DNA of 64,000 nucleotides from Arenicola marina (taxonomy: Eukaryota > Annelida > Polychaeta > Arenicolidae). Location of the stretch: NCBI GenBank assembly GCA_964019135.1, contig OZ025260.1, forward strand, positions 28,204,254 to 28,268,253. Reading direction: 5' to 3'. Position numbers and translations under genes: made by a program. Each line of letters opens with the position of its first letter. Positions within the stretch are counted from its first letter, which is position 1. Shown in pieces: positions 38,797-64,000 of this stretch. The notes under the pieces were generated by a model. It was given only the letters and a program-made list of their open reading frames with translations. It did no database searches and was not told the DNA's origin.

Positions 38797-41700
38797 ATGG
38801 GAGAGCCTGAGGCAGTTGATGGACTCTCCGCCGCCATACAGAAAAATCTTAGCTCCAGGACACCAAGTGAAAATCAACAGGAAGCAGTTCTGGAAAATAT
38901 TGTTATCAGAGGAAGTCAAACATCAGTGGATGGAGAAAAGTCAATCGTCATTCAGGATGAGCCGGAAATGAAGTTATTGGAGACGACCTGTAAAGAAACA
39001 GACATCGAGGTTGCAGTGACTAGTGGTCAGAGTGAGGCAACATGTAGCAGTGTTTATGAGGCGTCGGCCAATGAGAACCCAACGGAACTGATCCTTGATA
39101 CCCTCAGTAATATTGACTATGGAGAAATTGAACGGTACGGTCTGCTAATATCGGTAATTTGCTATAATGTGAAAGTTAAGAAAAGTGAAACTGATCCTTG
39201 ATACCCTCAGTAATATTGACTATGGAGAAATTGAATTTTCAGTATAGTAACAGAACGTCTTAATTAGATGGATCATTAATTTGTAGGTGTTTTCTGTGCC
39301 ATGAAATTTCTTTTCAACGTAGTTGGTTACTGATGGTAAACGTTTATGCCTCAAAGCTTCATCTTCCTATATACAGGCTGGCAATGGAAGAAATATTGAA
39401 TGAGGCAAACCGAGGAGCTGAAAGATATAAGGAATTGGGTGCTTCAGGATGGTAAGTTATAAGGAACTGGGTGCTTCAGGGTGGTAAGTTATAAGGAATT
39501 GGGTGCTGCAGGATGGTAAGTTAGAAGGAATTGGGTGCTGCAGGATGGTACGTTAGAAAGAATAGGGTGCAGCTGGATGGTAAATTAGAAGAAATTGGGT
39601 GCTGCTGGATGGTAAGTTCCAAGGAATTGGGTGCTGTAGGATGGTAAATTCGAAGGAATAGGGGGCTGCATTATGGTTACTGAGAAGGAATTGGGTGCTA
39701 CTGGATGGTAAATTCGAAGGAATAGGGTGCTTCAGGATGGTGAGTTAGACTGAATTGGGTGCTACAGGATGGTAAATTAGAAGGAATTTGGTGATGCAGG
39801 ATGGTAAGTTAGAAGGAATTTGGTGCTGCAGGATGGTAAGTTAGAAGGAATTCAGTGCTGCAGGATGGTAAATTACTTGTACATTTTGTTCACAAAAAAA
39901 AGAAGAAGTATTCAATATATCATGTAACATTTAATTACAACCTCACTTATAACATATAATCATTAACGTTTGGCATCAATTACCAGTTTAATCTTTAGCC
40001 AACAAACTTCAATTATCTGAAAAAGGTTTTGAATAATTTGACTACACTTGTAGCCCCACCTGTTTATGCTTTGTTTCTCGCCAGGATGCGTCCTAAGCTG
40101 CCAGCGGTAAACAAGCGCTTCCTCAGGAACACCTTGGTGAGCACACTGAAGACTCCACTCCGCAAGTCTCGCCAGACAATGCCGAACGATGAACATTGCG
40201 CGACAGGGGCGGCCAAGAAACCGGCGTGCAGTGGCCACGAGAGCAACGGGCACGAGCCGAGAGACAGGACTCCGTCCAGCTACACCAGGAGCAGGTCACG
40301 AGACAACTCGGGCAGTAGTGGTCGGCGAAGCCAGAAGGGTCGTCGCCCACGGCACAGTAGATCGCAGTCGCCCAGTCGCTCGCGGTCTAGGTCAAGGTCG
40401 CGATCAAGGTCGCGCTCGCGATCAAGGTCACGCTCGCGATCAAGGTCGCGCTCGCGATCAAGGTCACGGACGCGGTCAAGGTCACGCACGCGGTCAAGGT
40501 CACGATCGCTTTCCGCAAGGTCATCCAGTAGGTCTCGGTCAAGGTCTCGGTCAAGGCGCAAACGTTCTTCCGACAACCATCGACGCTCTCGGCCTCGTTC
40601 TCGCTCTCGCTCTCGTTCGTACTCTCGCTCAGACTCTCGCGATCATCGGGACAGCCGCCACGAAGGGAGAAAGACATTCCACCCGACCGGTTTGCGCGGG
40701 CGCGGCCACTGGCGGGGCAGGGGTGGTTTTCGCGGTAGAGGCCCTGGACGGGGTTTCTTGCCGCGAGGGGGCTTTCCGCCGTACGTCCGTTACCCCCACC
40801 AGCCCGGTGTAATGCCGTGGATGCAGTTCCCATCCCCTGATCAGCAAATAGAAGCGCTACAGCATTACTTGCAGGGCCTCAAAGAAATGCAGCATCGCCA
40901 ATCAATGCAGACAATGTGGGACTACCCCTCGGAGCCCCAGCCAGGGCCCCTCGAACCCCGGCGCCCCCCCGACCCCCGGCGGCCCTCGTCCGACCCCCGG
41001 CGGCCCCCGTCCGACCCCCGGCGGCCCCCTTCCGACCCCCGGCAGCCCCCAACCCAGGCGGCGGGTCAGGGTGGGTCGGCGTCCTACGGGGAGTGGTGGC
41101 ACCGCTCCTACGTCTACAACGACTTCGAAAGCAGCACGGACCTGTCGGAAATGGAAGAAGAGGTGAAGAAAAAGAGAAGGAAAAAGAAAAAAAAGAAAGA
41201 CGGAAAGCATAGAAAGAAGTCGAAGAAGCGCAGGTCCGTGAGCCGGGGTGGCGAGTCTTCGAGCGCCAGCGCGGCCGGGGACAGCGCCGCCGGGGACAGT
41301 GACTCACACGACCCGGGACAACGTGAGAGCGCACAGAGGGCGCACCGCTCATCCAAGAAAACTAAGAAACACAAGAAACACAAGAAAAGGCGCAAAACGG
41401 TGGAAGGTAAAAGTGGACGCGAAAGTGGTGAGGCTAAGGAGGGAAAGGCGACCGTCAAAAGGAGGTCCGTGGACGGAAAGGGGGTCTCTGTGGGGCGGGC
41501 GACGGCGGTGGCTCATCACACTCACCCCTCCGGGGGTGTCGCGAGGGTGAGGAAGGCCGGCGGCGCGTCGCCGCCGAGTGCGGATGTCGACCCCTTCTCT
41601 GATGACGTGAGTATTGCGTCCTCGGACCTGGCGTTATCGGACCTCGGCGCCCCGACCCGTTGGGGCGTGGAAGGCCACAGCCGGCCCCATACCGTCGACC

Positions 41701-41954
41701 TGTTTGACAGCTCGGACCTGGACGACATCGCGCTGTCGGATGTGGAGGCCGCGCTGCGCTCGTCTGATGAGGAACTAGACATTGCCGAGGACGTGAAGCC
41801 GGCGATGGCCCGTCCCAGTGGTCACCACGCTGTGTCGAGGGCCACTGGAGGCGTCAGAGGGCCCTCTGGGGACACGAGTGGTCCCTCTGGAAGCATGGCA
41901 GCTGTCGGGCATCACTCTGACACTCGTCGACACAGAAAACATCGCCGGAAGTGA
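38797..41954 (+). CDS. POLR1D isoform-2-like protein with RS, RGG and Lys-rich extensions (760 aa)
   Basis: Exons are 38797-39134, 39377-39451 and 40085-41954 with matching phases. The ATG at 38797 (AAGGATGG context) is preferred over one 18 bases upstream. The core, residues 113-165, reads RLAMEEILNEANRGAERYKE and then WMRPKLPAVNKRFLRNTL. It closely matches the non-polymerase product of vertebrate POLR1D (isoform 2: AIEELLKEAKRG and a WMKCPLASTNKRFL block). The RNA polymerase subunit domain of POLR1D isoform 1 is absent here. After the core come an RS-dipeptide domain (about 203-325), an RGG/GRG region (about 336-365), DPRRPPS repeats (about 423-460), a Lys/Arg cluster (about 490-520) and an acidic Ser/Asp-rich tail. 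This composition suggests a nuclear, RNA-associated protein (inference). The isoform-2 function is not established to my knowledge. Exon B is the seed of a 14-unit repeat. Confidence 0.85.
39086..39235. repeat. Direct duplication of the end of exon A (47 bp, offset 103)
   Basis: 39086-39132 (from AACTGATCCTTGATACCCTC to GAGAAATTGAA) recurs at 39189-39235. The second copy lacks the CG|GTACGG donor and reads ATTTTC instead. Confidence 0.93.
39429..39876. repeat. 14 tandem copies of the exon B 5' splice site (32-bp unit)
   Basis: Unit 1 is the real exon end AAGGAATTGGGTGCTTCAGG followed by ATG|GTAAGTTAT. Thirteen further units follow at exactly 32 bp. Six units including the real one keep GGTAAGTT, one has GGTGAGTT, and others are degraded to GGTAAATT, GGTACGTT or GGTTACTG. 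All lie in the intron before exon C. Confidence 0.96.
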
Positions 41955-43784
41955 TTGAACGAGAGTCTCCATTGGCGGACCTCTTAGTGGGCCGCCCCGC
42001 CGTACTGCCGACTCCTGTCACCGATCAGCCAGGACAAGGAATCTCCACCTGTAAGCTGGTGAACGTTGGTCTTTATCTATGTCTCAGTCCAGGATGTAGC
42101 AACTGGTGGCAACCATGGTTACTCGACAGGCAATGTAAAAGGGAGGTTACTTTATTTAACACTACTACATAGCGGTTTGCGACAACACTTGCGCGGAGAG
42201 TAAAAGGTCGAAGATTGAACGGTTAGATATAAAGATATTCAGCAAAAGTTAAGACGATGAAGTTAGATTCGCCCTCCCCCCCCACCCTGAATGCCGTGAA
42301 TGCCAGTGCTACAACCTGGAATGACGACTTGATAAAAAGCGTCACCTCCTTCAAAGTGGATTTTTTTTGTCTAGTCTGGTTACCGGCGCAACATTAATGT
42401 CTGATCTTGTTTTAGGTAAGCTCGACGGCTAACGGAAGCAGATGTTGCCTAGGGAATGACTGGGGAATGACTGGTCAATCAGCGACAAAATCATGTTACT
42501 CCAGACACGTAAAATTACATAAAAGTACGTGTGACATGCAGAAACTGGGGCACCGGACCCAACAATGACACTTTGGTTGATGTGATCGGATCTCCTGGAT
42601 TTCCACCCCGATAATTATGTTTTCTGTGTACCGCCAATGGGCCACCTCTTGCTGTTTGATGTGATACTTCAAGAGCGTGTTTACATTGGTCGGGCTTATT
42701 TAAGATATGACTGCCGAGAATTCATCGACTCCAACCCATATTAGTTCCAGGTGTGAAATGATCCAATAAAGTCTTGTTACCACTTACTTTCCTTCTGGTT
42801 CCAGACATTCTAAACTGGTGTTGATAATTCCATAACAAAGCCTATGTACAAGAAGGGTGCGTATTAGAAATCTGCCCGGGCGCAAAATATCTGCCCGCAC
42901 CTGTCCCATTTCTGCCCTCGCCCGCCCCGCGCCCGCAGGGAGCTGCCCGCACGCCCGCACACGCTGGATAAAAACAGGACAGACTTGTCTACCTGCCATG
43001 TTTTGCATGTAGCTGTGAAGGCATTTACGGTTTCTCCGTTACAACGGCTGCTGGACTTCTAATTTGTAACAGTTCGCAGTCTTTGGAGAGAGAAAGAGAG
43101 GGGAAGTAGAATGCGATAGGGTGATGAAAAATACGTCGCATACCCCCAATGAAGTCGGCAACACAGGAAACGACCGTACCTACTGGCTAGAACTAAATAA
43201 TAATCCCCCCTCTTACGGGGGATTCTCAGCCTTGTACCCCGCAAGAGCGCAAACTGTTTAAAGGACTAGGGCATTACATTTTTCGCAAGCAGTGCCCTGC
43301 ACACACCTATGTGTGAGCCATTTCTGAATTAAATTCAGTTTCCAACAAGCATAATTGTGCGATATCAGAACTCCCGCCAGTAAGAAACCAGTCGAAAGAA
43401 GTGTCGAATTGACACAAGCCCTTGAAAGGCTAAATATTTTGCATTCGACAAGATCTTCAGGAACATGAATCAATGGTTAATTCTGTTGATGTTAAATCTC
43501 ATTTGGCTATTGGCAACTTCACCTACATCTGAAGTGGTTAGTAATCTCTCCCTCAACAGCTTCTTTAAATTGTGACCCCATCACCCTTGGTATGGCATGT
43601 CCACTGGTAACGGTAGCCATATATGTTTATTGGCCAACACCATGTCCCTCCAACGGACATGCAGCTAGCACATTTACGGGTATAGTCCTGGTTCAAACGC
43701 TTCTGAGACCGGCATTTTTAACTGAGGCATATTTTCTGTCATCTGCAATACACGTACAAAGATAAAAATCGTTTCCCGCGTTGT
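41955..43784. other. 3' UTR of the POLR1D-like gene and intergenic sequence
   Basis: No further conserved exon was found. A patch at 42880-42960 is rich in GCCCGC repeats. Confidence 0.5.
42765..42770 (+). promoter_or_regulatory. Candidate polyadenylation signal AATAAA for the POLR1D-like gene
   Basis: CCAATAAAGTCTTG lies 811 bases after the stop and is followed by a G/T-containing stretch. Confidence 0.5.
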
Positions 43785-46050: not shown

Positions 46051-46377
46051 GCCCATCGCGTCGCCAAGCGATCTGCAGACGTACCGCCAGAGAGCATTCA
46101 CCTCAGACTTCTGAGAAGAACGAGCGACATCTGTTGGGAGAGTGAACGCGAATGTATCACACCACTAAGACGAGATTCACTTCCATGACCAGCCCCACAC
46201 TGTTTACAAATGTCACCGTGTTTTTAGATAAGATTATGTCGATTCGACACATCGTACAGTTGAGTAACGACAACATAATGCCAGTGGCTGCAGCTACGAT
46301 ATAAAAGTGTAAACTGTGAGTGCACACAATGAGTACAAACGTTCATTCGACTCAATATGGCCATGATCACATGACAT

Positions 46378-46669
46378 GACACACTCCGTAAAGGTTTTGA
46401 ATGGCACAACACTTTTCGATGTAGAGTTCCTATTCGAAAGCTCCCGGCGAAAAGTGTCTTAACTATTGTTTAAAATATTTACCTTTTTTGCAATCTACAA
46501 AATTTATTTTTCCTCCCGGCGCCTTTTCTGAAGACGAACGCCAGCAAAATATACACTAACATGTGAAACATAAGCCATTTACTAGTTCATGTAGCATACG
46601 CCGCCATGCTTGTTTTCTACATAGAAAAGTGTTGTGCCATGTGTGCTATTCAAAACCTTCACCTTGGTG
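46378..46669. mobile_element. Fold-back element with about 40-bp inverted arms
   Basis: AAAGGTTTTGAATGGCACAA followed by CACTTTTCGATGTA (about 46391-46423) is inverted at 46618-46665 (TACATAGAAAAGTGTTGTGC, then TATTCAAAACCTT), with a short insertion in the right arm. The arms are separated by about 190 bp. No duplication of the target was identified. Confidence 0.65.
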
Positions 46670-47424
46670 GTGGTTTTGATGTCAGAGCTATCCAGTCAAC
46701 TGCTGCCGTGCTGGTCAAGTCGAGGGGTGTATTAATAATGCTCTTCGCCTGCCGGGGGCGGACTTTTTGCGTATACATTTTTAAAGTTCTGTATGTCGGA
46801 TATTCAAATGTGAAGTCCCCATAGTCCGACAGCAACATGGCAGACAAAAGAGTTCTTGGTGTCATTTCACTAAGATCACTGGCTCTGACTCATAAAATTA
46901 AAAATAAATTAAATTGCCGGCCTGAAGAAAAATGAAAAATGTTAAATATATAAGCTTAGGTCATTCATAGCTTTTATTACTTCAGGCCTCTGGCGCATAG
47001 TATAGTAAAATTAATACAATTATTCTTATGGAAAAAAAAGGCTTTTCAAATACTGGTGGAAAATATATTGTGGTGTAAATCTATACGCAGCAAGACTGCA
47101 ATCTATCAATTCCTATCAATGAAAACATCTCCTGCTCACTACTAGAGCTGTTGCTTTGACATCATGTTGGAAATTCTTATGCCTCTGCTCGAAACCGAGA
47201 GCATGCAGTGCGGTAAAATTAATCAAATGATTCAATACTTAGGATGCGATACTTGCTATTTGATTTGTAAGATATTGTGATCTAGGTACTCAGCATCTAT
47301 AATCAAATGTGTTTGAGGAGTTCAAGAGAGTCGAGTTCCGCATCACAAACACGGTCAAACACTGCATACAATTTTGGTTACTGAATCACAGCAAATAATT
47401 TTCATTTATTGCATGCTTATTCAC

Positions 47425-47795: not shown

Positions 47796-48033
47796 TTGTA
47801 TATCCAGGACGCTTTAATCAATTCTTGTCACATCGCATCAAGGGGAGAAGGAAGGAAAGAATGGAGCCATATCCCTGGTTTACGAAGAAGGATATAGGAT
47901 ATTTATCCTTGAAACCGCACAGATCTGACTGTAGCTGGGCTTGAACCACTGATCTATGTGTTATTAGGCTCTCAGGTGGCCAGAGCCGCCAATTTGAGTG
48001 CTCTAACCTACTGAGCTGTTGGGTCGGCCCTAG
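47796..48033 (-). mobile_element. tRNA-derived SINE, diverged near-full copy
   Basis: In inverse orientation it contains the tRNA-like head (TAGGGCCGACCCAACAGCTC then AGTAGGTTAGAG), the box-B-like region and the body shared with 50676-50925. It lies upstream of TBCK. Confidence 0.85.
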
Positions 48034-48976
48034 TGAGCGAGTCACATCATCAAGGGGATTTAACCTGTTCACATGTGAAATTATTCGGTCATAAAGTAAA
48101 TCCTGCAAAAAGAAGGAAGTCATGTATAATGCAGGGACCACTGTATTATGACCAGTTGTTATAGTAATGTTACATGAAATGATCATCATTTCTGGTGTGT
48201 AAGTCACTTTTCTTTCTTGCATCTGAGGGCTGTGACTTATACACCAGTGCAACTTATATACAGACTGCTCTCATGACACCCCTCTCCTTATCAGTGTTTG
48301 CACCTATCATAATCTCATCCAGGGAATCCGGCACTGATTGAAGATCTAAGCAGTCTAGACAACTATCGGTAACACGTACCATTCACCTTTCCATCCCCTA
48401 TCGCATCTCTTACCAAATATGACTTGGCTAGCTATCCTGACACTGACTGAATGTTTATGAGTCACTCCTGCGGCTACCAGATATCAAGATTTTGTTTGAT
48501 CCTTTTAATCTAAGATGGCAGCTGTGTCAAGTTACCTGGTACATCATCCAATGCCACATTCCGGAGCCATGCTCGGCCACTCTATGAGTTAAGTCAAAAT
48601 TAGGTACCCTGCAGCGATGACAATGGATGACCCCTCACTCCACTCCCTCCCTACAAATGCAGCACGCTCACTTGAAAGCTGTGTTCCCTAATCATGTGAT
48701 GCATCAACTACCTATATAAATGCCTAATTGCTGTTAAATATGGTGTGTAAAGCTGGTGCCCGCTGAAGCTGCACTCTTGAGTACACTTCGAAAAAACATT
48801 AGCACAGGAAGCCACAAAGTCCTTTTTGCATTCTTTTACCTGTTGTGTGATTTTTTTGTTATAATTCAAACTACTGGCTGTATTCCTCATGCATAAGCAA
48901 AACCATTTTTTAATAAATAATGTAGTTGTATATGAATTCTACTCTTTATGTAAACTTCTGGTGTCTATATTTGCAG
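48034..48976. other. Upstream region or first intron of TBCK
   Basis: The first coding exon is preceded by an acceptor (TATTTGCAG at 48968-48976), so a non-coding 5' exon probably lies in or before this interval. No promoter element could be pinned down. Confidence 0.4.
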
Positions 48977-51900
48977 GACTTAAGCCATGAGGACATTTGG
49001 AAAAGCTGAGCTTGGTGCTGTCACTTTCTGCGCCTCTTGCCAACCGAGTGATGAGTGTGGAGCCAATGGCTTGCCGCTTACCCCTAACAGCATCAGAATA
49101 CTGGGCCGCTTCCAGAGGCTCAAGGGCATCCATCACCAGAACTTGGCCAGATATGTTCACCTTACAAGATCCAAGCATGGTCAGTTCATCTCTGATATTT
49201 CCTCATGCAATAGTTTAATGTTCTAAATGCCACAGCTGCTCATTTTGCAAGGTCCAGTGCTACAGTGCCTTCTACGCTAGCAGCACCACCCATCAGGCAT
49301 GTGGCCTTTGCCTTTCCTCTCCCTAACCAGAATCTGGGCCAATGTCCAGTTAATGTATATGTAGTTTACTTATTAACAATTCTTATGCTCCATGTTCTCC
49401 GTCAGTCAAGTAGTTTTATGTATTCAATGTCTTATTTACCAAACCCATGCCCTTGTTTCTTAATTCAAACAGAAATATATTTTGGGCTTTTCAGAGCGAC
49501 TTCTTGTTGTTTCGGAATTTTACAAAAATAACCTATCTTTGGAGTCTCGGTCAGGAAAGTATAGTGCGTAAGTATGTCGCCTATTGTGATGACGTTACTA
49601 ATGTAATTAAATACAAACAACACATGTAACTAACAACACTTTTTTTCGTATTTATTGTTGTAATTTGAAGGAACTTCTCCCGTTCAATATGAAGTGTTTG
49701 GCTTGTCACCGTGATAATTATACTGTGGACGAGAATTAGTTGTTGCCGAAACTTGGGTTATGCAGTAGAACCCATGCTACAATATAGGGCACATTATACA
49801 TAGATATATATAGGTCTTCATGTATATATAAATATAACAGTGGTTTTTGGGATACCGGTTTAGCACCTCTGTGATTCATCCAACACCAATACTTGCTTGT
49901 CACTCGGTGGGTAGAGCTGGGGAGCTGGTGGAGCTGGCGTTTGGAGTGCTGCAAGGCTTGGCTCACCTCAACCAGACAGGTCTCGTCCATCGATGTCTGT
50001 CTCCTGCAAACATACTCCTCGATCCCGAGGTAATTAAGTCCCCTTTCCTTCCCACATATTAACAATGTCAATGTGATCGATAACAATCTTACCATTAGGT
50101 GGAATAGGGTGGGACGATCGAGTCCTAACTTGGTACATCTTCCATGTTAACTCCCCCATTATTATTGTTATTGTAACATGTACTACGTATAGTTAATTAC
50201 ATGAGCTATTTTGGTTCTCGCTACAATGAAGGAACCACCGCGAATTCATGAATACTGTTATTGGCATGGTTGCTGTTTTTGTTTTGCAGTCTAACGTGCT
50301 GTTGGCCAACTATGGGATGTACGACATGACTCACTATGGGGCAGATGTGGAACCACCGCGAATTCATGAATACTGTTATTGGCATGGTTGCTGTTTTTGT
50401 TTTGCAGTCTAACGTGCTGTTGGCCAACTATGGGATGTACGACATGACTCACTATGGGGCAGATGTGGAACCACCGCGAATTCATGAATACTGTTATTGG
50501 CATGGTTGCTGTTTTTGTTTTGCAGTATAACGTGCTCTTGGCCAACTATGGGATGTACGACATGACTCACTATGGGGCGGATGTGGCGTTCCCTATCGGG
50601 TAAGGCTTCCTCTGACACTCACACACACCGCGCTCAAAACCAGCCACTGATTCATTTCCTATCCTTACCAGGGGCCGGCCCGGTAGCTCAGTGGGTTAGA
50701 GGGCTCGCCTTCAGTGCTCTCAAGCCTCCTGAGAGCCTAACGGCGCGTGGATCGGTGGCTCGAGCCCCGCTGTGGCCATGTCTGTGTGGTCGCAGGATAA
50801 AGATCCCATATCCTTCTTCGCAAAGAGTAGGGGGTTACCCCCAGGGACATGGCTCCACTCTCCCTTCCTTTTCCCATGGACGCAATATGACCAAAAGTGG
50901 TTAAAGCATCCTGAATATACAACCTATCCTTATCCTATTTATGTCAAAGTGGGTTCGACATGTTCACACGTGTTCAGCGCAATGGTAATTGTTGGTATAT
51001 TACACGGCACGTGGATCGGTGGTCCAAGTCCTGCTGTGGTCAGGTCTTTGTGTTCGCAGGATAAAGATCCCATGTCCTTCTTCGCAAATACAGATTGTTT
51101 TACATAACTTTGAACTAGTTTATCACAAATAATACAACGACGACTTCGTGCGCATTTTATGCCATATATGTGTTATTAAATAATGAATAATTAGCAGGAA
51201 AATAACTACTATTAGGTTACGTGTGCCTTGCATTATAGTACATTTATTAGGTTGCGTGTGCCTTGCATTATAATACATTTATTAGGTTGCGTGTGCCTTG
51301 CATTATAGTACATTTGTTAGGTTACGTGTGCCTTGCATTATAGTACATTTATTAGGTTGCGTGTGCCTTGCATTATAATACGTTTATTAATGATGCTAAA
51401 TAACAGGTATGTATTCAAAGATTCAATATCATTTATTCATCAAAGCGGCAATATTTATTCATTTTATCATTTATTTCGACCAGGAAAGCAACAACAATAC
51501 AATACATCATACAGCAAAAACGAAAAAAATATAATCCCTGGCCGAGGAGACCACCATTATGACATAGTCGCTGGCATGGTGAAAAATCATGCATATTGCA
51601 TGAATGAACATAAAAGGAAAGTTAAACACGACTTTGACACATGAGACTGTCTGAAGTTAAATACCGCTATCGTGAGCGCCACCTGGAGTTGTTGTAATGC
51701 AGACGAATGATCTAACTGTAACTTATGTAATTCTCTTTTCGTGCCGTCTGGTGGCGCCACTGCAGCGTCACCAAGTACCTGGCCCCTGAGGTGTTCGCGC
51801 AAGGACCCGTCCAGCTCACAGAGTTTGACCCCACATCGGACGAGCCCCGGCGCGTGGCGCAGCCGCCGTCCGGCCCTAAAGTGGACGTCTGGTCTCTGGG

Positions 51901-54900
51901 CCTCTGTCTGCTCGAGGCGTACTTGGTGCGTGCATCGACAGGATAGATCTATGTCACACTTAATGGCTTTGAAAGCTTAATCTTTGCCTCAGAGAAGTGT
52001 AATTTGTGTCCACCCCAGATGGCTGTACTGCCAATAATGCCCCACTGTGGATTGTTGTCGTTATTTGTTATTTCCCTTACATAATCCTCCTTTTGTTTCA
52101 AATGATTCTCCTTTATTTACGATGATTCTTTTTGTGTTCACACGGATTCTAGTTTTGTTTACAATGATTCTCTTTCAGGGCATTGCATTGTGGGAAGAAC
52201 TGACGATTCAAAAGATCTTCCGTAATATTGTGGATCTGGCCTTAGCGAAAGGTAAACGGTTAAGTGTCTTTGAAGTGTGTTATTATTGCCTGCCTACCTC
52301 TCTTTTTAAATAATTATATTATAAGTGGTGGTTTATATATACATTGTCGTTACCACTTGAGCCAAAGCTTCAATGTAAGCAACATTTTAGTAATGCAGGA
52401 TGAAACGATTTTTTTTTATGTCTGTACCAAAATATATGTTACGCCACCATCCCCCTTTGTTACGCCACCATATCCCATTATTACGCCACCATCCCCCATT
52501 GTTACGCCACCATCCCCCATTGTTACGCGACCACCCCCCATTGTTTCGCCACCATCCCCCATTGTTACGCCACCATCCCCCATTGTTACGCGACCACCCC
52601 CCATTATTACGCGACCACCCCCCATTGTTTCGCCACCATCCCCCATTGTTACGCCACCATCCCCCATTGTTACGCGACCACCCCCATTGTTACGCGACCA
52701 TCCCCCATTGTTACGCGACCACCCCCCATTATTACGCGACCACCCCCCATTGTTACACCAACCATCCCCCATTGTTACGCGACCATCCCCCATTGTTACG
52801 CGACCATCCCCCATTGTTACGCGACCATCCCCCATTGTTACACCAACCATCCCCCATTGTTACGCCACCATCCCCCATTGTTACGCCACCATCCCCCATT
52901 GTTACGCCACCATCCCCCATTGTTACGCCACCATCTCTCATTGTTGTAGATTCGACGCCCCTAGATGAGATTCTCAAGCAGCACGGCATGGTCGACAGGG
53001 AAAAGGTATGTAGACCTTGTCGAACGCAGAGGGCGTTCCGCTTAAACTATAGTCCTTCTGCCCCGCGTCAAATTTTTACCATCAGAATTATCCTTCATAC
53101 GCAAAAACTGAACACCGCTGTTTAGTATTTGCTATGCTACTGGTACGGTACCGGACTAATGCATTCAATTTTGATTAAATTAGGAGCCATGTTACATTCT
53201 ATCTATGTTTCAAGGTCGTGACGCGCTTTGAACTTTGACCCCGTGTTATTTTAAAACCTTAGTTTTGCTTACCTCTTCTATTTTGATCGCACGACAGCAG
53301 CATGTCTATATTTTTCAAATTCTGCAAAAAATACAACCACAACAACCCTTAAAAATCATTCATGATCCCAGGATAGTTGACGTCAACCGTGAGGTGGGCG
53401 GTTACGTGGGGCAGAGGTGATGTGAGGAACGCGCTCTCTCTGCTGGCAGAGTGTGGGACCCGGCATAGAGGCGACAGGGGTCCATGAATATGTCTGATAT
53501 ATATTTGCAGGTTATGTTAATGTATATGTCTAATTATATGTGCAGGTTATGTTAATGTATATGTCTACTATATATTTGCAGGTTATGTTAATGTATATGT
53601 CTAATTATATGTGCAGGAGATACCGCAGGAAGTCGTCACCTTGCTCAAGCTCTGCCTCACAGTGTCGCCATCCAGAAGGTTAGTGACGTCATCGGGTTTG
53701 ATTGGTTGGTTGTATATTCAGGACGCTTTACCGCTTTTGGTCATATCGCGTTAATGGGAGAAGGAAGGGAGAGTGGAGCCATGTCCCCGGGGGTAACCCC
53801 CTACTCTTTACGAAGAAAGACTTGGAATCTTTATCCTGCGACCACACAGACATGGCCACAGCGGGGCCCGAACCACCGACCCACGTGCCGTTAGGCTCTC
53901 AGGTGGCCCATCGGGTTTGAGTCACCCTCCCGTAAGCTAATGGGTTAATTGATGTCGAGTAGAGCAGGAGCAAATATTATTGAGGAGAAAAGCAAAATTC
54001 TGTAAGCGTGGTCTGTGAAAACGATGCTTTAATTTATGACTCCATTTAAATCTATCGAAATATTGACTCACGTTAGAAATATTGCTATCCTAAGATCGCT
54101 TTCCACATACAACTACCACAAAATATGCCGTGGGTTTACGTTTTACTTCTTGCATATAAATTCAAAAAAGATAGATTTGTAGGATCTGTAGCCAGCCAAC
54201 CTATAATTCCCGATGTCTGTTGGCGTTGTATTTGAAATAAGGCGCCCCCAAACGGCATCCAAGGAAAGTATATACTCCATGGATTGTTTCAGGCCACTGC
54301 CATCAGAGCTACTGGAGTTGCCAATGTTTAAAGGCCTAGCGAAGAAACAGGTACGTTTAGTGCTGTGTGTTAAACAGGTAGGCTCCATGCTGCATGTTAT
54401 AACAAGTACGCCCCGTGCTGCCTGGTTAAACGTTTCGTTCTTTTGTCAAAAGGGAATTAGCGGCTGTTACTAAAATGTGGAACGGTATTGTTTCCCGGTA
54501 TCTCCTCGACCCGGGTTTATAACCTTTTCCTTTCTTCTCTATGCTGTATTGTATTGTTGTTTTCCTGGCCGAAATAAATGATGATTCGCTCGTTTTCATT
54601 ATAAGTTTGTAGAAGCGTTGGCCAGCATCATTTCTCGTTTAATTCACAGTTATCAGTATACTATTATGGTCCAGATAAGGCGGTCAAATGACTCACCATT
54701 ATACTTCGAATAAAGGAGCGTTTGTGCCAAGTACGGAGTATGGGGTAAGAACTTAAGTTCATTCTCATCTCTGCGTCTATTATTGGTGTCGATATATTAT
54801 ATATGTATATATGGATACCAATAACAGATGCAGATATCATTTGTTCTATATATAGATATATATGTACACACTGTCTTCCAGAAGACCCCAGTCAATGGGT

Positions 54901-57900
54901 TCTACATGTTCTCTGCCAAGCTGCGCTGTGCACACCTTGATGTACCCACCCTGGACGAGGACTGCCCAGGTACGTCCGCCCGCGTGGTCCACTGGCTGGT
55001 CACTCTGGAGTGTCCACGTGGTCCACCGGCTGGTCACTGTCGAGTGTCCACGTGGTTCACCGGCTGGTCACTGTGGAGTGTCCACGTGGCTTACAGGCTG
55101 GTCACTGTGGAGTGTCCACGTGGTCCACCGGTTGGTCATTGTGGAGTGTTCACGTGGTCCACAGGCTGATCACTGTGGAGTGTCCACGTGGTCCACCGGC
55201 TGGTCACTGTGGAGTGTCCACGTGGCTTACAGGCTGGTCACTGTGGAGTGTCCACGTGGTCCACCGGCTTGTCACTGTGGAGTGTCCACGTGGCTTACAG
55301 GCTGATCACTGTGGAGTGTCCACGTGGTCCACCGGCTGGTCACTGTGGAGTGTCCACGTGGCTTACAGGCTGATCACTGTGGAGTGTCCACGTGGTCCAC
55401 CGGCTGGTCACTGTGGAGTGTCCACGTGGTCCACCGGCTGGTCACTGTGGAGTGTCCACGTGGCTTACAGGCTGGTCACTGTGGAGTGTCCACGTGGTCC
55501 ACCGGCTTGTCACTGTGGAGTGTCCACGTGGCTTACAGGCTGATCACTGTGGAGTGTCCACGTGGTCCACCGGCTGATCACTGTGGAGTGTTCACGTGGT
55601 CCACCGGCTGGTCACTGTGGAGTGTCCACGTGGTCCACCGGCTGGTCACTGTGGAGTGTCCACGTGGTCCACCGGCTGGTCACTGTGGAGTGTCCACGTG
55701 GTCCACCGGCTGGTCACTGTGGAGTGGCCACGTGGTCCACCGGCTGGTCACTGTGGAACGTCCACGTGGTCCACCGGCTGGTCACTGGAGTGTCCACGTG
55801 GTCCACAGGCTGATTACTGTGGACTGACCACGTGGTCCACCGGCTGGTCACTGTGGAGTGTCCACGTGGTCCACCGGCTGGTCACTGTGGAGTGTCCACG
55901 TGGCTTACAGGCTGATCACTGTGGAGTGTCCACGTGGTCCACCGGCTGGTCACTGTGGAGTGTCCACGTGGCTTACAGGCTGATCACTGTGGAGTGTCCA
56001 CGTGGTCCACCGGCTGGTCACTGTGGAGTGTCCACGTGGTCCACCGGCTGATCACTGTGGAGTGTCCACGTGGTCCACCGGCTGGTCACTGTGGAGTGTC
56101 CACGTGGTCCACCGGCTGGTCACTGTGGAGTGTCCACGTGGTCCACAGGCTGGTCACTGTGGACTGACCACGTGGTCCACAGGCTGATCACTGTGGAGTG
56201 TCCACGTGGTCCACCGGCTGGTCACTGGAGTGTCCACGTGGTCCACAAGCTGATCACTGTGGACTGACCACGTGGTCCACCGGCTGGTCACTGTGGAGTG
56301 GCCACGTGTGTCTAGTGTACTGACCCATGCACCGCTCGGTGTTCTCCCCAAGTAGCTACTGCGGAGTTATCCTTCATAGCCCTCGCGGTGAAACCTATTG
56401 TTCTGGTATCGACCAGAGGGTGATGTTTTGGAAGATAAGTTGAATAGTTCGACCGACCATTTCCGATTTAAATACGTGTGTCTCATGTGTATGTGTGTGT
56501 TTCCCATGTGTATGTCCCATGTGTCTGTGTGTGTGTCCCATGTGTATGTGTAGGTGTCCCATGTGTCTGTGTGTGTGTCCCATGTGTATGTGTAGGTGTC
56601 CCATGTGTATGTGTAGGTGTCCCATGTGTCTGTGTGTGTGTCCCATGTGTATGTGTGTGTGTCCCATGTGTATGTGTAGGTGTCCCATGTGTCTGTGTGT
56701 GTGTCCCATGTGTATGTGTAGGTGTCCCATGTGTATGTGTAGGTGTCCCATGTGTCTGTGTGTGTGTCCCATGTGTATGTGTAGGTGTCCCATGTGTATG
56801 TGTAGGTGTCCCATGTGTATGTGTAGGTGTCCCATGTGTATGTGTAGGTGTCCCATGTGTATGTGTAGGTGTCCCATGTGTATGTGTAGGTGTCCCATGT
56901 GTATGTGTAGGTGTCCCATGTGTATGTGTAGGTGTCTCATGTGTCTGTGTGTGTGTCCCATGTGTATGTGTAGGTGTCCCATGTGTCTGTGTGTGTGTCC
57001 CATGTGTATGTGTAGGTGGTCCATGTGTATGTCCCATGTGTATGTGTGTGTGTGTGTGTGTATGTGGTCCATGTGAATGTGCCCCACGTGTATGATTGAT
57101 TGTGTAGGTGTCCCATGTGTGTGTTTCCCATTGTAGTGGCCGCGGCGGGCGAGGACTACTTGAGCGAGCGCAGTATCGACGAGGTCTTCTACCTGTGGCT
57201 GCGGGCCGGTGGGGATCTGGAGGCTGTCCTCAAGAAAGCCGCTCTCATCCGCAACCAGACGCCAGTCACCAAGCTAGCCAGGTAGGGTGGCTGTACCAGG
57301 CGCCGTGCGCACGCCAGGGCTTACAGACTAAGTGGCCAGGTAGGGTGGCTGTACCAGGCGCCGTGCGCACGCCAGGTCTTACAGACCAAGTGGCCAGGTA
57401 GGGTGGCTGTACCAGGCGCCGTGCGCACGCCAGGGCTTACAGACTAAGTGGCCAGGTAGGGTGGCTGTACCAGGCGCCGTGCGCACGCCAGGGCTTACAG
57501 ACTAAGTGGCCAGGTAGGGTGGCTGTACCAGGCGCCGTGCGCACGCCAGGTCTTACAGACCAAGTGGCCAGGTAGGGTGGCTGTACCAGGCGCCGTGCGC
57601 ACGCCAGGGCTTACAGACTAAGTGGCCAGGTAGGGTGGCTGTACCAGGCGCCGTGCGCACGCCAGGGCTTACAGACTAAGTGGCCAGGTAGGGTGGCTGT
57701 ACCAGGCGCCGTGCGCACGCCAGGTCTTACAGACCAAGTGGCCAGGTAGGGTGGCTGTACCAGGCGCCGTGCGCACGCCAGGGCTTACAGACTAAGTGGC
57801 CAGGTAGGGTGGCTGTACCAGGCGCCGTGCGCACGCCAGGGCTTACAGACTAAGTGGCCAGGTAGGGTGGCTGTACCAGGCGCCGTGCGCACGCCAGGTC

Positions 57901-60900
57901 TTACAGACCAAGTGGCCAGGTAGGGTGGCTGTACCAGGCGCCGTGCGCACGCCAGGTTTTACAGACCAAGTGGCCGGGTAGGGTGGCTGTACCCGGCGCC
58001 GTGCGCACGCCAGGTCTTACAGACCAAGTGGCCAGGTAGGGTGGCTGTACCAGGCGCCGTGCGCACGCCAGGTCTTACAGACCAAGTGGCCAGGTAGGGT
58101 GGCTGTACCCAGTGCCGTGCGCACGCCAGGTCTTACAGACCATGTGGCCAGGTAGGGTGGCTGTACCAAGCGCCGTGCGCACGCCAGGTCTTACAGACCA
58201 AGTGGCCAGGTAGGGTGGCTGTACCAGGCGCCGTGCGCACGCCAGGTCTTACAGACCAAGTGGCCAGGTAGGGTGGCTGTACCAAGCGCCGTGCGCACGC
58301 CAGGTCTTACAGACCAAGTGGCCGGGTAGGGTGGCTGTACCAAGCGCCGTGCGCACGCCAGGTCTTACAGACCAAGTGGCCAGGTAGGGTGGCTGTACCA
58401 GGCGCCGTGCGCACGCCAGGTCTTACAGACCAAGTGGCCAGGTAGGGTGGCTGTACCCAGTGCCGTGCGCACGCCAGGTCTTACAGACCAAGTGGCCAGG
58501 TAGGGTGGCTGTACCCGGCGCCGTGCGCACGCCAGGTCTTACAGACCAAGTGGCCAGGTAGGGTGGCTGTACCAAGCGCCGTGCGCACGCCAGGTCTTAC
58601 AGACCAAGTGGCCAGGTAGGGTGGCTGTACCCAGTGCCGTGCGCACGCCAGGTTTTACAAACCAAGTGGCCAGGTAGGGTGGCTGTACCAGTCGCCGTGC
58701 GCACGCCAGGTCTTACAGACCAAGTGGCCAGGTAGGGTGGCTGTACCCAGTGCCGTGCGCACGCCAGGTTTTACAACCTAAGTGGCCAGGTAGGGTGGCT
58801 GTACCAGGCGCCGTGCGCACGCCAGGTCTTACAGACCAAGCGGCCAGGTAGGGTGGCTGTACCAGGCGCCGTGCGCACGCCAGGTCTTACAGACCAAGTG
58901 GCCAGGTAGGGTGGCTGTACCAGGCGCCGTGCGCACGCCAGGTCTTACAGACCAAGTGGCCAGGTAGGGTGGCTGTACCCGGCGCCGTGCGCACGCCAGG
59001 TCTTACAGACCAAGTGGCCAGGTAGGGTGGCTGTACCAGGCGCCGTGCGCACGCCAGGTCTTACAGACCAAGTGGCCACGTAGGGTGGCTGTACCCAGTG
59101 CCGTGCGCACGCCAGGTCTTACAGACCAAGTGGCCAGGTAGGGTGGCTGTACCAGGCGCCGTGCGCACGCCAGGTCTTACAGACCATTTGGCCAGGTAGG
59201 GTGGCTGTACCCGGTGCCGTGCGCACGCCAGGTCTTACAGACCAAGTGGCCAGGTAGGGTGGCTGTACCCGGCGCCGTGCGCACGCCAGGTCTTACAGAC
59301 CAAGTGGCCAGGTAGGGTGGCTGTACCCGGTGCCGTGCGCACGCCAGGTCTTACAGACCAAGTGGCCAGGTAGGGTGGCTGTACCCGGCGCCGTGCGCAC
59401 GCCAGGTCTTACAGACCAAGTGGCCAGGTAGGGTGGCTGTACCCGGCGCCGTGCGCACGCCAGGTCTTACAGACCAAGTGGCCAGATATGGTGGCTGTAC
59501 CAAGCGCCGTGCGCACGCCAGGTCTTACAGACCATGTGGCCAGGTAGGGTGGCTGTACCCGGCGCCGTGCGCACGCCAGGTCTTACAGACCAAGTGGCCA
59601 GGTAGGGTGGCTGTACCCGGCGCCGTGCGCACGCCAGGTCTTACACACCAAGTGGCCAGGTAGGGTGGCTGTACCAGGCGCCGTGCGCACGCCAGGTCTT
59701 ACAGACCAAGTGGCCAGGTAGGGTGGCTGTACCCGGCGCCGTGCGCACGCCAGGTCTTACAGACCAAGTGGCCAGGTAGGGTGGCTGTACCAGGCGCCGT
59801 GCGCACGCCAGGTCTTACAGACCAAGCTGGCCAGGTAGGGTGGCTGTACCAGGCGCCGTGCGCACGCCAGGTCTTACAGACCAAGTGGCCGGGTAGAGTG
59901 GCTGTACCCGGCGCCGTGCGCACGCCAGGTCTTACAGACCAAGTGGCCGGGTAGGGTGGCTGTACCCGGCGCCGTGCGCACGCCAGGTCTTACAGACCAA
60001 GTGGCCAGATATGGTGGCTGTAACAAGCGCCGTGCGCACGCCAGGTCTTACAGACCAAGTGGCCAGGTAGGGTGGCTGTACCAAGCGCCGTGCGCACGCC
60101 AGGTCTTACAGACCAAGTGGCCAGGTAGGGTGGCTGTACCAAGTGCCGTGCGCACGCCAGGTCTTACAGACCAAGTGGCCAGGTAGGGTGGCTGTACCAA
60201 GCGCCGTGCGCAGGCTAGGTCCTACAGACCAAGCTGGCCAGGTAGGGTGGCTGTACCCAGCGCCGTACGCACGCCAGGTCTTACAGACCAAGTGGCCAGG
60301 TAGGGTGGCTGTACTAGGCGCCGTGCGCACGCCAGGTCTTACAGACCAAGTGGCCAGGTAGGGTGGCTGTACCAGGCGCCGTGCGCACGCCAGGTCTTAC
60401 AGACCAAGCTGGCCAGGTAGGGTGGCTGTACCAAGCGCCGTGCGCACGCCAGGTCTTACAGACCAAGTGGCCAGGTAGGGTGGCTGTACCAAGTGCCGTG
60501 CGCACGCCAGGTCTTACAGACCAAGTGGCCAGGTAGGGTGGCTGTACCAAGCGCCGTGCGCAGGCTAGGTCCTACAGACCAAGCTGGCCAGGTAGGGTGG
60601 CTGTACCCAGGCGCCGTACGCACGCCAGGTCTTACAGACCAAGTGGCCAGGTAGGGTGGCTGTACTAGGCGCCGTGCGCACGCCAGGTCTTACAGACCAA
60701 GTGGCCAGGTAGGGTGGCTGTACCAGGCGCCGTGCGCACGCCAGGTCTTACAGACCAAGCTGGCCAGGTAGGGTGGCTGTACCAGGCGCCGTGCGCACGC
60801 CAGGTCTTACCGACCATGTGGCCAGGTAGGGTGGCTGTACCAGGTGCCGTACCAGGTTTACGCCACTTCATGCAGACCAAGTGAATTTGCCATTTAGCAT

Positions 60901-63900
60901 GTTACGCGGCCCTATCGGTGACTTCAAGATCTGATTTTCACTACTTCTTGGACCCCATTGTGGTGGATTTCATACTCCTTTGTTCGAGCGGTGAACGTTA
61001 ATCTGCTGATACATGCTTACAGTATATGTCACTGAGGCATTACTTTCCTATTTGTTTCCCTGCCAGCGGTCTAGTCATACCACCGTATGTGTCATCCTCT
61101 CCAGGTTTTTCGTGGAGGAGGGTGAGTTGTTCGGGGAGCGCAGGGACCGCTCCACCCTGCTCGATGACAGGGTGGTCATCCTGCCCCAGGACCAGCTGCG
61201 TCAGGTAACTACGGGCAACGACACCTTCTACTGGGGGACTCACTGAGAGTCCCACTGATAAGACTCCCACTGGGGGATTACCACTAAGGGGCTCCCCCTG
61301 GGGGATTACCGCTAGGGGACTCCCACTGGGGGATTACCACTAAGGGACTCCCACTGGGGGATTACCACTAAGGGACTCCCACTGGGGGATTACCACTAAG
61401 GGACTCCCACTGGGGGATTCCCACTACGGATTCCCACTGGGGATTCCCACTAGGGGAATCCCACTGGGGGATTACCACTAAGGGACTCCCACTGGGGGAT
61501 TCCCACTAGGGTCTCCCACTGGGTACTTCCACTGGAGGACTCCAGCATTAGCATTTAGTCTTGAATCTTAGCTTAGCCAGAAAATTTAGATTGATTCTAA
61601 AACTTCATTCATAACGATTATTGTCACTTAGGCTTATCGGGTTCAAAATAGATAAGTAGTCACCCAAGAGGTGGATTTTCTGAATTAAAAAAAGTGCTAA
61701 ATTTATATTGCAGAGGATTTCACGTAAGCTAGGTGTGGTTTATGAATACGGGCATTGATCCTGCCCCTGGGGCCACGTGTCGCCATGACCTTGTGACTGT
61801 CGATGTTGTCCTTCCAGAGACTGGAGAAGATTGATGCCGCGGCCTATTACCCGTTACTGGAAGAAGAGTACGTAGCCATAGTAACCTGTCAAGGGGCGGC
61901 CACGCCGTGGTCAAACAACAGGAAACACCTCGTCAAGCACTGTTTACACCGTAACTTGCTGACGTTAATTAGTTATCAATCAGGTAACGTGACTCGCGTA
62001 CGTTTGTGTTATATGTTCTGCAAGTCATTCGTGCCGACATATTTGGTCTGTCGCGGAGGCGGATCCGGTATGGGAGGTATGCTGTGTTGTTCATCACGTG
62101 GGACATGACGGGTGGATATTAGCGTCGGTCGCAGTTAATCCCGGTTAATCCCGGTTAATCCCGGGAACAGTTAATCCCGGGGACAACAGTTAATCCCGAG
62201 TGTCTGTCTCCGTCCTGCCACTTCCATATTAACTATAATCATGTAATCCTCCTGATCCCCTCCCTTGCCTTGTTCCCTGCCACAGGTACAGCAGCAGTAT
62301 GGGGACCAGCCTGCCGGTGTCCCAAAGCACTGGGGACCTGATGGAGACCAGCAAGCTGCCGCTCGTCATCCGGGAGCGGGATGTCGAGTACCAGGTCAGT
62401 CAGCGGGTGCGCAGTGTCAGGGTGTGTATGTGATAGATTTGGGCAGACAGTCACGACAGTCGGGGGCCAGTAAAGAGATGGAAACCAGCCAGTCCATTGA
62501 ATGAACCTCTCATTCCTCGTTAATTGCTAGTTATAATGAAGCCTGTGACCATGCTGACGGTGACGCTGACGGTGTCTGTTTCTCGCCGCCAGTTCCACCG
62601 CCTGATCCTGTTTAAGTGTCTGTTTCTTGCCGCCAGTTTCACCGCCTGATCCTGTTTAAGTGTCTGTTTCTTGCCGCCAGTTCCACCGCCTCATCCTGTT
62701 TAAGTGTCTGTTTCTCGCCGCCAGTTCCACCGCCTCATCCTGTTTAAGTGTCTGTTTCTCGCCGCCAGTTCCACCGCCTGATCCTGTTTAAGTGTCTGTT
62801 TCTCGCCGCCAGTTCCACCGCCTGATCCTGTTTAAGTGTCTGTTTCTCGCCGCCAGTTCCACCGCCTGATCCTGTTTAAGTGTCTGTTTCTCGCCGCCAG
62901 TTTCACCGCCTGATCCTGTTTAAGTGTCTGTTTCTTGCCGCCAGTTCCACCGCCTCATCCTGTTTAAGTGTCTGTTTCTCGCCGCCAGTTCCACCGCCTC
63001 ATCCTGTTTAAGTGTCTGTTTCTCGCCGCCAGTTCCACCGCCTCATCCTGTTTAAGAGTCTGTTTCTCGCCGCCAGTTCCACCGCCTCATCCTGTTTAAG
63101 TGTCAGTTTCTTGCCGCCAGTTTCACCGCCTCATCCTGTTTACGTGTCTGTTTCTCGCCGCCAGTTCCACCACCTCATCCTGTTTAAGTGTCTGTTTCTC
63201 GCCGCCAGTTCCACCCCCTCATCCTGTTTAATCGTCTGTTTCTCGCCGCCAGTTCCACCGCCTGATCCTGTTTAAGTGTCTGTTTCTCGCCGTCAGTTCC
63301 ACCGCCTCATCCTGTTTAAGTGTCTGTTTCTCGCCGCCAGTTCCACCGCCTCATTCTGTTTAAGTGTCTGTTTCTTGCCGCCAGTTTCACCGCCTGATCC
63401 TGTTTAAGTGTCTGTTTCTTGCCGCCAGTTCCACCGCCTCATCCTGTTTAAGTGTCTGTTTCTCGCCGCCAGTTCCACCGCCTCATCCTGTTTAAGTGTC
63501 TGTTTCGCGCCGCCAGTTCCACCGCCTCATCCTGTTTAAGTGTCTGTTTCTCGCCGCCGGTTCCACCGCCTCATCCTGTTTAAGTGTCAGTTTCTTGCCG
63601 CCAGTTTCACCGCCTCATCCTGTTTAAGTGTCTGTTTCTCGCCGCCAGTTCCACCACCTCATCCTGTTTAAGTGTCTGTTTCTCGCCGCCAGTTCCACCG
63701 CCTGATCCTGTTTAAGTGTCTGTTTCTCGCCGCCAGTTGCACCGGCTCATCCTGTTTAAGTGTCTGTTTCTCGCCGACAATTTCACCGCCTGATCCTGTT
63801 TAAGTGTTTGTTTCTCGCCGCCAGTTGCACCGCCTCATCCTGTTTAAGTGTCTGTTTCTCGCCGCCAGTTCCACTGCCTGATCCTGTTTAAGTGTCTGTT

Positions 63901-64000
63901 TCTCGCCGCCAGTTCCACCGCCTCATCCTGTTTAAGTGTCTGTTTCTCGCCGCCAGTTCCACCCTCTCATCCTGTTTTAGTGTCTGTTTCTCGCCGCCAG
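48977..64000 (+). CDS. TBCK: TBC domain-containing protein kinase-like (TBCK), 5' half
   Basis: TBCK is a pseudokinase-TBC-rhodanese protein linked to endosomal/RNA transport complexes and mTOR signalling. Coding exons: 48987-49179 (exon from 48977), 49495-49558, 49915-50029, 50526-50599, 51766-51925, 52179-52251, 52950-53005, 53617-53678, 54293-54350, 54882-54969, 57137-57281, 61105-61204, 61818-61867 and 62286-62394; these give 449 codons with all phases consistent. Exon 15 starts FHRLILFK within a repeat. Signatures: [105 protein letters not shown]. The catalytic loop reads HRC (no Asp) and the DFG position reads NYG, so it is a pseudokinase, as known for the family. The TBC and rhodanese parts lie right of the window. 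Intron 3 to 4, 7, 8, 10, 11 and 14 junctions sit in tandem repeats. Exon 3 has a weak acceptor tract. Confidence 0.95.
50232..50599. repeat. Triplicated TBCK exon 4 acceptor and exon body (118-bp unit)
   Basis: Copies of TTTTGTTTTGCAG|TCTAACGTGC and the following exon sequence start at 50290, 50408 and 50526, spaced exactly 118 bp. Copies 1 and 2 run from exon sequence (GGGGCAGATGTG) back into intron (GAACCACCGCG) and have no donor. Only copy 3, with TATAACGTGCTC, continues to CCTATCGG|GTAAGG. Confidence 0.96.
50676..50925 (+). mobile_element. tRNA-derived SINE, full-length copy
   Basis: The head reads GGCCCGGTAGCTCAGTGGGT (A-box type) and GGCTCGAGCCCCG (B-box type). The body is GGATAAAGATCCCATATCCT with CTTCGCAAAGAGTAGGGGGT, and the 3' end is near GTGGTTAAAGCATCCTGAAT. 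It is in TBCK intron 4. Confidence 0.93.
50995..51098 (+). mobile_element. tRNA-derived SINE, partial copy
   Basis: CGGCACGTGGATCGGTGGTC and GGATAAAGATCCCATGTCCT match the middle of the preceding SINE; both ends are missing. Confidence 0.85.
51213..51390. repeat. Minisatellite, 35-bp unit x 5
   Basis: Five copies of ATTAGGTTGCGTGTGCCTTG followed by CATTATAGTACATTT, alternating TTGCG/TTACG and TAGTA/TAATA. Confidence 0.93.
52438..52949. repeat. 20-21-bp minisatellite ending in the exon 7 acceptor
   Basis: The unit is TTACGCCACCATCCCCCATTG with GCGACC and TTTCGCC variants. The last unit reads ACGCCACCATCTCTCATTG and runs directly into TTGTAG, so the pyrimidine tract of the TBCK exon 7 acceptor is formed by the final degenerate repeat. 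Confidence 0.93.
53476..53616. repeat. Four tandem copies of the exon 8 acceptor (35/36-bp unit)
   Basis: Each unit is GTTATGTTAATGTATATGTC plus a T/A-rich arm ending TTTGCAG or TGTGCAG. CAG ends occur at 53510, 53545, 53581 and 53616, and only the last precedes exon 8. Confidence 0.93.
53706..53925 (-). mobile_element. tRNA-derived SINE, head-truncated copy
   Basis: Inverse match to the 50676-50925 copy. It includes CTTTATCCTGCGACCACACA and the region around GGGCCCGAACCACCGACCCA, but the outermost tRNA-like head is missing. It lies in TBCK intron 8. Confidence 0.9.
54985..56315. repeat. 34-bp minisatellite with a CACGTG in nearly every unit
   Basis: The unit is GTGTCCACGTGGTCCACCGG followed by CTGGTCACTGTGGA, about 38 copies, with a CTTACAGG sub-family. 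It starts about 15 bases after the exon 10 donor of TBCK. Confidence 0.95.
56478..57120. repeat. GT-rich minisatellite abutting the exon 11 acceptor
   Basis: The unit is CCCATGTGTATGTGTAGGTGT (21 bp) with CTGTGTGTG variants. The last degenerate unit (CCCATGTGTGTGTTTCCC) continues into ATTGTAG, the acceptor of TBCK exon 11. It lacks stops in several frames, which gives spurious open frames on both strands. Confidence 0.93.
57256..60860. repeat. About 61 tandem copies of the exon 11 5' splice site (58-bp unit)
   Basis: The exon 11 end, ACGCCAGTCACCAAGCTAGC then CAG|GTAGGG, is echoed in every unit as ACGCCAGGTCTTACAGACCA then AGTGGCCAG|GTAGGG. GTAGGG recurs at 57282, 57340 and onward at 58 bp. 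The first dozen units show a three-unit higher-order pattern (GGGCTTACAGACTAAG twice, GGTCTTACAGACCAAG once). Later units vary mainly at CCAGGCGCC/CCAAGCGCC/CCCAGTGCC. Confidence 0.96.
61228..61545. repeat. 28-bp minisatellite in TBCK intron 12
   Basis: GACTCCCACTGGGGGATTAC followed by CACTAAGG recurs with variants about 11 times, beginning some 25 bases after the exon 12 donor. Confidence 0.9.
62130..62200. repeat. Short GTTAATCCCG repeats
   Basis: Five irregularly spaced copies of GTTAATCCCG lie in TBCK intron 13. Confidence 0.85.
62576..64000. repeat. About 32 tandem copies of the exon 15 3' splice site (44-bp unit)
   Basis: Each unit is GTCTGTTTCTCGCCGCCAG|T followed by TCCACCGCCTGATCCTGTTT and AAGT. 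The part after CAG encodes FHRLILFK, which fits the TBC-domain start after VEYQ in exon 14. The array runs past the window end. The complete exon probably follows the last unit outside the window. Confidence 0.95.

Follow-up and report, generated by a model that had tools for sequence, protein, structure and literature searches.

Tandem arrays at exon–intron junctions were analyzed in a 64,000-nt stretch of an annelid-like genome (the window), which occupies C13:28204254-28268253 in an assembly of 867 Mb; the 20 kb that follow it were analyzed as well. By the structure of their units, these arrays are to be regarded as mirage-type minisatellites, a known class that would now be recorded in a second, distant animal group. 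Arrays were called by Tandem Repeats Finder (TRF), and the exon models of the window genes (chiefly TBCK, a gene here called POLR1D-like and a gene for a secreted protein) were rebuilt by hand and then checked for an open frame. An earlier reading of the window made from its letters alone (the sequence-only reading) had listed six arrays in which a splice site and adjacent exon sequence are repeated as one unit. For five of them this was borne out, the genuine splice site being repeated together with 14–61 nt of exon (exonic nt within the TRF array), whereas at TBCK exon 8 the unit holds no more than the intron tail with the AG. The range 39086..64000 given there for the arrays leaves out the secreted-gene exon 2 donor array, which lies at 21004-21189. 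At the end of POLR1D-like exon A, where a simple duplication had been proposed, exon sequence is indeed doubled, but the donor is not part of the copy. Two more arrays, described as merging into the acceptors of TBCK exons 7 and 11, stop 4 bp and 31 bp short of them by TRF. The features are collected in Table 1.

Table 1. Junction arrays in and beyond the window, and genes of the window (window positions; extended positions continue the same numbering)
Feature	Position	Strand	Unit and copies	Details
Secreted-gene exon 2 donor array	21004..21189	-	32 bp, 5.8 copies	14 exonic nt; exon end GGTGACCTCAAG, then gtgaga
POLR1D-like exon A end, two copies	39087-39132, 39190-39235	+	103 bp apart	second copy without donor
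POLR1D-like exon B donor array	39422..39875	+	32 bp, 14.2 copies	30 exonic nt; exon end TCAGGATG, then gtaagt
TBCK exon 4 acceptor array	50231..50586	+	118 bp, 3 copies	intron tail and 61 exonic nt; genuine exon from 50526
Array abutting TBCK exon 7 acceptor	52437..52945	+	21 bp	stops 4 bp short; no exon sequence
TBCK exon 8 acceptor array	53484..53617	+	35/36 bp, 3.8 copies	intron tail and AG; no exon sequence repeated (1 nt overlap)
TBCK exon 11 donor array	57268..60850	+	58 bp, 61.7 copies	13-14 nt of exon 11 end and gtaggg donor
TBCK exon 15 acceptor array	62572 to window-extended 64772	+	44 bp	cgccgccag and about 24 nt of exon
ITPR acceptor array			43 bp, 30 copies	unit ccccacag, then GTGGGCTGTG
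ITPR donor array			74 bp, 34.7 copies	59 exonic nt; copies past the first two seen on extension
TBCK exon 21 acceptor array			47 bp	interrupted by an insert of about 390 bp
TBCK exon 22 donor array			68 bp, 10.7 copies
Plexin donor array			39 bp, 74.2 copies
Plexin donor array, second			60 bp, 20.2 copies seen
Inositol-phosphatase donor array			44 bp, 37.5 copies seen	genuine exon presumed, outside the analyzed DNA
TBCK gene, exons 1-14	48987..62394	+		frame and protein matches; exons 15-25 beyond the window
POLR1D-isoform-2-like gene	38797..41954	+		exons 38797-39134, 39377-39451, 40085-41954; open frame
Secreted-protein gene	19259..22151	-		exons 22151-21798, 21445-21176, 20695-19259; DUF7042/7043/7045
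Presumed coronin-7-like exons	846-4860			WD40_4

The sequence-only reading knew of no described class of this kind, and on this point it was mistaken. In the excerpts of two amphioxus reports (PMC3087553, PMC3902484), tandem repeats across exon–intron boundaries are named mirages, for Adh3 and then for globins and PGBD5; troponin C is also counted among them (PMC3902484), the first description is attributed to Canestro 2002, and the mechanism is called unclear. As given in these excerpts, the amphioxus cases (Adh3, BflGb6, BflGb9, PGBD5 and troponin C) are like the present arrays in that units join an exon edge to an intron edge, are found at donors or acceptors, and keep AG or GT in many copies; moreover, their units of 10-72, 60, 108 and 150-160 bp overlap the unit sizes found here. 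The present arrays are longer, with 61.7 copies at TBCK exon 11 and 74.2 in a plexin gene versus the 3 and 6 units mentioned for BflGb6. Unlike amphioxus, the host is annelid-like, and the arrays stand at 13 of the 145 junctions examined (exon 8 included). Units spanning the boundary with both exon and intron sequence were found in five of the six claimed window arrays and in seven arrays elsewhere, exon 8 falling outside this definition. Many but not all copies keep AG or GT (182 of 200 decoys in eight arrays). At the level of protein prediction, the copy on the exon side is the genuine one and the product is unaltered; for TBCK exon 15, this copy (FHRLILFERLLKAYPYK) was found beyond the window, beginning at extended position 64749 in the last array copy. 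In amphioxus, reverse transcription polymerase chain reaction suggests that splicing is undisturbed by mirages, according to the excerpted text (PMC3087553).

Boundary repeats have also been described in human. In segmentally duplicated human genes, as far as the excerpt of the source goes, minisatellites with units of about 30 bp likewise stand at exon–intron boundaries and alter gene structure; in those recent paralogs they can give rise to novel introns and alternative transcripts, whereas the arrays studied here enlarge introns of conserved genes (PMC2812944). Intron gain by tandem duplication, as outlined in part of a further source, is similar in that the duplicated sequence holds splice signals, but new introns arise there within exons, while in the present arrays a single intron end is multiplied (PMC2891723). 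A shallow literature search returned no report of mirages under that name outside lancelets.

Seven further junction arrays were found beyond the window: three came from systematic genome samples (two in ITPR and one in an inositol phosphatase) and four from the extension of TBCK and plexin. Both plexin donor arrays emerged on extending the plexin piece, where none had been counted, and the extension of ITPR gave no additional junction arrays. The periods given by the sequence-only reading are all non-multiples of three; this is no rule, given the exon 8 array, with its period of 36/35 bp, and the plexin donor units of 39 and 60 bp. The ITPR, plexin and phosphatase exons were taken from a crude predictor that had been both trained and tested on the window; Pfam and inspection by eye served as checks, so that individual boundaries may be inexact. 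At its strictest threshold the predictor gave 17 plus-strand exons, of which 12 overlapped known exons and six were exact. The genes were identified by the Pfam domains RIH and MIR (ITPR), PSI with a sub-threshold Sema (plexin) and Exo_endo_phos2 (phosphatase). The phosphatase gene presumably resembles INPP5B/OCRL, and on this resemblance its genuine exon was placed. Two similar ITPR exons, at L009:890-989 (SSFVRLRHLCTNTWVHS) and L009:2311-2410 (DTYVRLRHLFTNTWVHS), are perhaps mutually exclusive.

Decoy splice sites were scored in eight arrays with a matrix trained on the window junctions, the two plexin arrays and those of the phosphatase, exon 8 and exon 21 being left out. As shown by these scores, 127 of the 200 decoys equal or exceed the genuine site, among them 49 of 58 at TBCK exon 11. 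GT was kept in all 13 decoys of the POLR1D-like array and in three of six in the secreted-gene array, where none reaches the genuine-site score. Of the four arrays whose copy number allows the comparison, three have splice dinucleotides as variable as the unit, or slightly more so: at TBCK exon 11, 59 of 61 copies have an intact GT (mean unit divergence 2.7%), at TBCK exon 15, 30 of 32 have an intact AG (3.3%), and in the secreted gene four of six have an intact GT (unit divergence 9.6%). The POLR1D-like array was the exception, and the TBCK exon 4 array, with 3 copies, was uninformative on this point. When reading was continued past the genuine donor, the first stop was met at codon 2 in the POLR1D-like, TBCK exon 11 and ITPR arrays, at codon 12 in the secreted gene and at codon 14 in the 39-bp plexin array, that is, within 14 codons in five of the seven donor arrays checked; it was met at codon 54 at TBCK exon 22 and at codon 232 in the 60-bp plexin array. 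The TBCK, POLR1D-like and secreted-gene frames stay open when the exon-side copy is used. Boundary copies were slightly unlike inner copies at TBCK exon 4 and at the ITPR donor. Since most decoys are intact, most would be costly to read past, and in most arrays they evolve as their neighbors do, they appear to be a tolerated by-product. Within the 58-bp unit of TBCK exon 11, the donor and an acceptor-like unit end, ttacag (AG kept in 57 of 61 copies), lie around the 13-nt exon copy; the resulting tandem pairs of micro-exon and mini-intron could in principle be spliced.

Whether the arrays meet junctions more often than by chance depends on the yardstick. By intron occupancy they are depleted, as arrays make up 55% of the intronic bases in the four window genes and stand at 6 of 44 junctions (the exon 15 acceptor and 5 of the 43 junctions inside the window), an outcome that the sequence-only reading had itself named as speaking against its proposal. 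Arrays grow after birth, and a null of single-unit seeding was therefore considered fairer: each array was shrunk to one unit, and units were placed at random in the shrunken genes, units wholly within exons being excluded. Under this null, six junction arrays were observed in the window (exon 8 included) versus 2.5 expected (P about 0.03, tested after the fact), and seven outside it versus 3.0 expected (P 0.02; 101 junctions, 32 arrays). With the territory widened to gene flanks and seven more sampled loci, the seven compared with 3.5 expected (P 0.06), or with 2.8 when at least 8 exonic nt were required (P 0.02). A less complete count, three by TRF or four with exon 21, versus 2.0 expected, gave no clear excess. 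The observed counts of 6, 7 and 13 (the last for the combined set) were made by eye and TRF, with the genuine phosphatase exon and exon 15 entered as mock exons; predicted exons wholly inside arrays, and cases at loci L020 and L014 that looked coding or unclear, were excluded before counting. Junction-spanning arrays are thus probably about two-fold enriched over random seeding, an estimate that is suggestive, not secure, the sets being small, partly chosen after the fact and based on hand-made exon models.

The arrays are most readily accounted for as minisatellites that arose neutrally across junctions in a genome prone to tandem repeats, and we consider this explanation likely. The genome, about one third of which is minisatellite in the window and the samples, would make short tandem duplications at many places, and some would happen to straddle an exon edge. 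The copy joined to the exon body would remain a working splice site, and the extra copies would be tolerated because it still works; landing in the intron, they would be costless while unchosen and could expand by slippage or unequal exchange. Splicing would then have to choose the exon-side copy by position among dozens of near-identical sites. Neutrality, correct splicing and the slippage mechanism are what we infer from the arrays as they stand. Several observations weigh against so passive an origin. In the combined set, 13 junction arrays compare with a seeding expectation of 5.0 (145 junctions, 49 arrays; P about 0.0007 under the uniform null). Arrays without exon sequence lie no more than 12 bp from an exon edge more often than expected (9 versus 2.3 over 58 intron ends; outside the window alone, 6 versus 1.3). 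All 14 copies of the POLR1D-like array keep the GT at a unit divergence of about 10%, which would also fit selection. Two of the seven donor arrays can be read for 53 or more codons, and inner copies are therefore not always costly. With the excess over seeding and the edge crowding taken together, a further factor besides random seeding may operate at exon edges.

One candidate is a hot spot: junctions, donors above all, would generate tandem repeats by a mechanism linked to transcription or splicing (R-loop, pausing or break repair). The excess of spanning arrays, in the combined set as well as outside the window, and the pile-up of abutting ones agree with it, and donors, assigned from gene strands, account for eight of the 13 spanning and seven of the nine abutting arrays. 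The numbers are small, however, the models hand-made and the counting after the fact, and ITPR was extended once arrays had been seen there; the units also seem unrelated by eye save for the splice consensus. The excess shrinks if seeding prefers GC-rich DNA, the combined P rising to 0.006 (weight 3) or 0.03 (weight 6), but the unit GC of the 36 other arrays is 44% versus 42% in introns, so that a strong GC bias of seeding is not supported. We consider such a process unlikely. The mutational bias at junctions proposed by the sequence-only reading gains modest support from the two-fold excess over seeding and from the edge crowding of other arrays, with nothing pointing to R-loops or the spliceosome specifically. 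It is similarly improbable that junctions, donors especially, truly act as hot spots at which minisatellites are born in this lineage, a transcription- or splicing-linked process producing both spanning and abutting arrays independently of the amphioxus lineage; if they did, splice junctions would be a general cradle of tandem repeats. Edge survival is possible, if rather doubtful. Arrays would creep outward in introns until they reach an exon, and since deletions at the edge would also hit the exon, edge arrays would last longer; the crowding of arrays without exon sequence and arrays in ITPR and the inositol-phosphatase gene that start at the first intron base are consistent with this, but alone it fails to explain the 8-61 nt of exon in the units.

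Selection on the decoys, either as a buffer against splice-site loss or for the tuning of splicing, had also been proposed. The many intact and high-scoring decoys and the invariant GT of the POLR1D-like array would agree with it, but the dinucleotides of the exon 11, exon 15 and secreted-gene arrays are no better kept than their units, and reading on soon meets a stop in most donor arrays, the two later stops notwithstanding; this explanation is very improbable. That the arrays are assembly artefacts, or repeats collapsed or expanded in assembly, is scarcely credible: long arrays are difficult to assemble, but the copies differ among themselves, two large contigs (C13 and C1) carry the arrays, and the genuine copy predicted for exon 15 was found where expected. 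Neutral birth across junctions is thus preferred. The observation of the sequence-only reading was largely right, and the mechanism is most likely passive birth, with perhaps a mild excess of arrays at exon edges.

The host was placed by means of TBCK. Exons 1-14 give a single uninterrupted frame of 452 residues, matched by TBCK proteins along its whole length. Among the best 120 of 431 relatives, full-length proteins include those of Capitella (54% over the whole query) and B. floridae (47%). In the tree, the window protein groups with Paralvinella, Capitella and vestimentiferans, with values of 89/87 for the pair with Paralvinella and 92/93 for the set of the window, four annelids and one further row; no starred set contains the window. 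TBCK therefore places the window, with moderate support, among annelids and apart from amphioxus, and the host is taken to be an annelid-like lophotrochozoan.

A tandem-repeat scan was also performed over 250 relatives of TBCK and the secreted protein (120 + 13 + 117 new). A single protein with a tandem repeat was found, the TBCK of Lamellibrachia satsuma (P0165), which carries 16 copies of a 19-residue unit at residues 733-1033. The last copy ends in GEAEL and is followed by SMDAVPL, whereas the other copies continue with VRK or VIK, as a donor beginning with GT could read. The repeat sits at the exon 22/23 junction, which here bears the 68-bp donor array; probably this other annelid too has a donor array at that position, and the gene model was carried through it. 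Mirage-type arrays may thus spoil gene models. Each long array is also a natural experiment on splice-site choice, with dozens of equal sites that differ only by position.

In its repeat load, the window is apparently not unusual, since TRF gave 34 merged minisatellite arrays (period at least 10) covering 32.6% of it, versus 33.8% of the sample from contig C1, made up of 21 pieces of 10 kb (the first 10 kb and 20 pieces at 3.7-Mb steps). Arrays also occur within a coding exon, in intergenic DNA and in intron parts far from any junction, and at the end of TBCK a 110-bp stretch comprising the stop-codon region and the first part of the 3' untranslated region is duplicated (L032:8738-8964) where there is no junction at all. 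The main coding arrays, in POLR1D-like exon C (40377-41299), have periods of 12, 15, 18 and 21, all in frame, unlike most non-coding arrays, a pattern to be expected if sequence retained in the mRNA is under selection. TRF adds a weaker 10-bp row for the 21-bp coding array of this exon. Two of the 21 sampled pieces (C1:5700001-5710000, L003, and C1:42700001-42710000, L013) are one tandem array throughout.

Each of the other two principal genes of the window likewise gives one open frame in its exon model. The secreted protein has 13 relatives, the closest at 83% and one from Capitella at 37%. The three-exon plus-strand gene was named for POLR1D isoform 2, which we take it to resemble; it gave no database match, no solved relative below E 0.5 and, for the frame of its last exon (C), no Pfam family. 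Exon C is rich in arginine and serine. The WD40_4-bearing exons near the start of the window presumably belong to a coronin-7 gene. An LTR (long terminal repeat) retrotransposon, which we take to be Ty3-like, lies on the minus strand at 27420-33040; an open frame in it encodes RNase H, integrase core and zinc-binding domains. Short dispersed SINE-like (short interspersed element) stretches, related by eye, were seen at 47800-48040, 50680-51090, 53700-53920 and 17980-18260, one of them with a tRNA-like start (ggtagctcagtgggttagagggctc).

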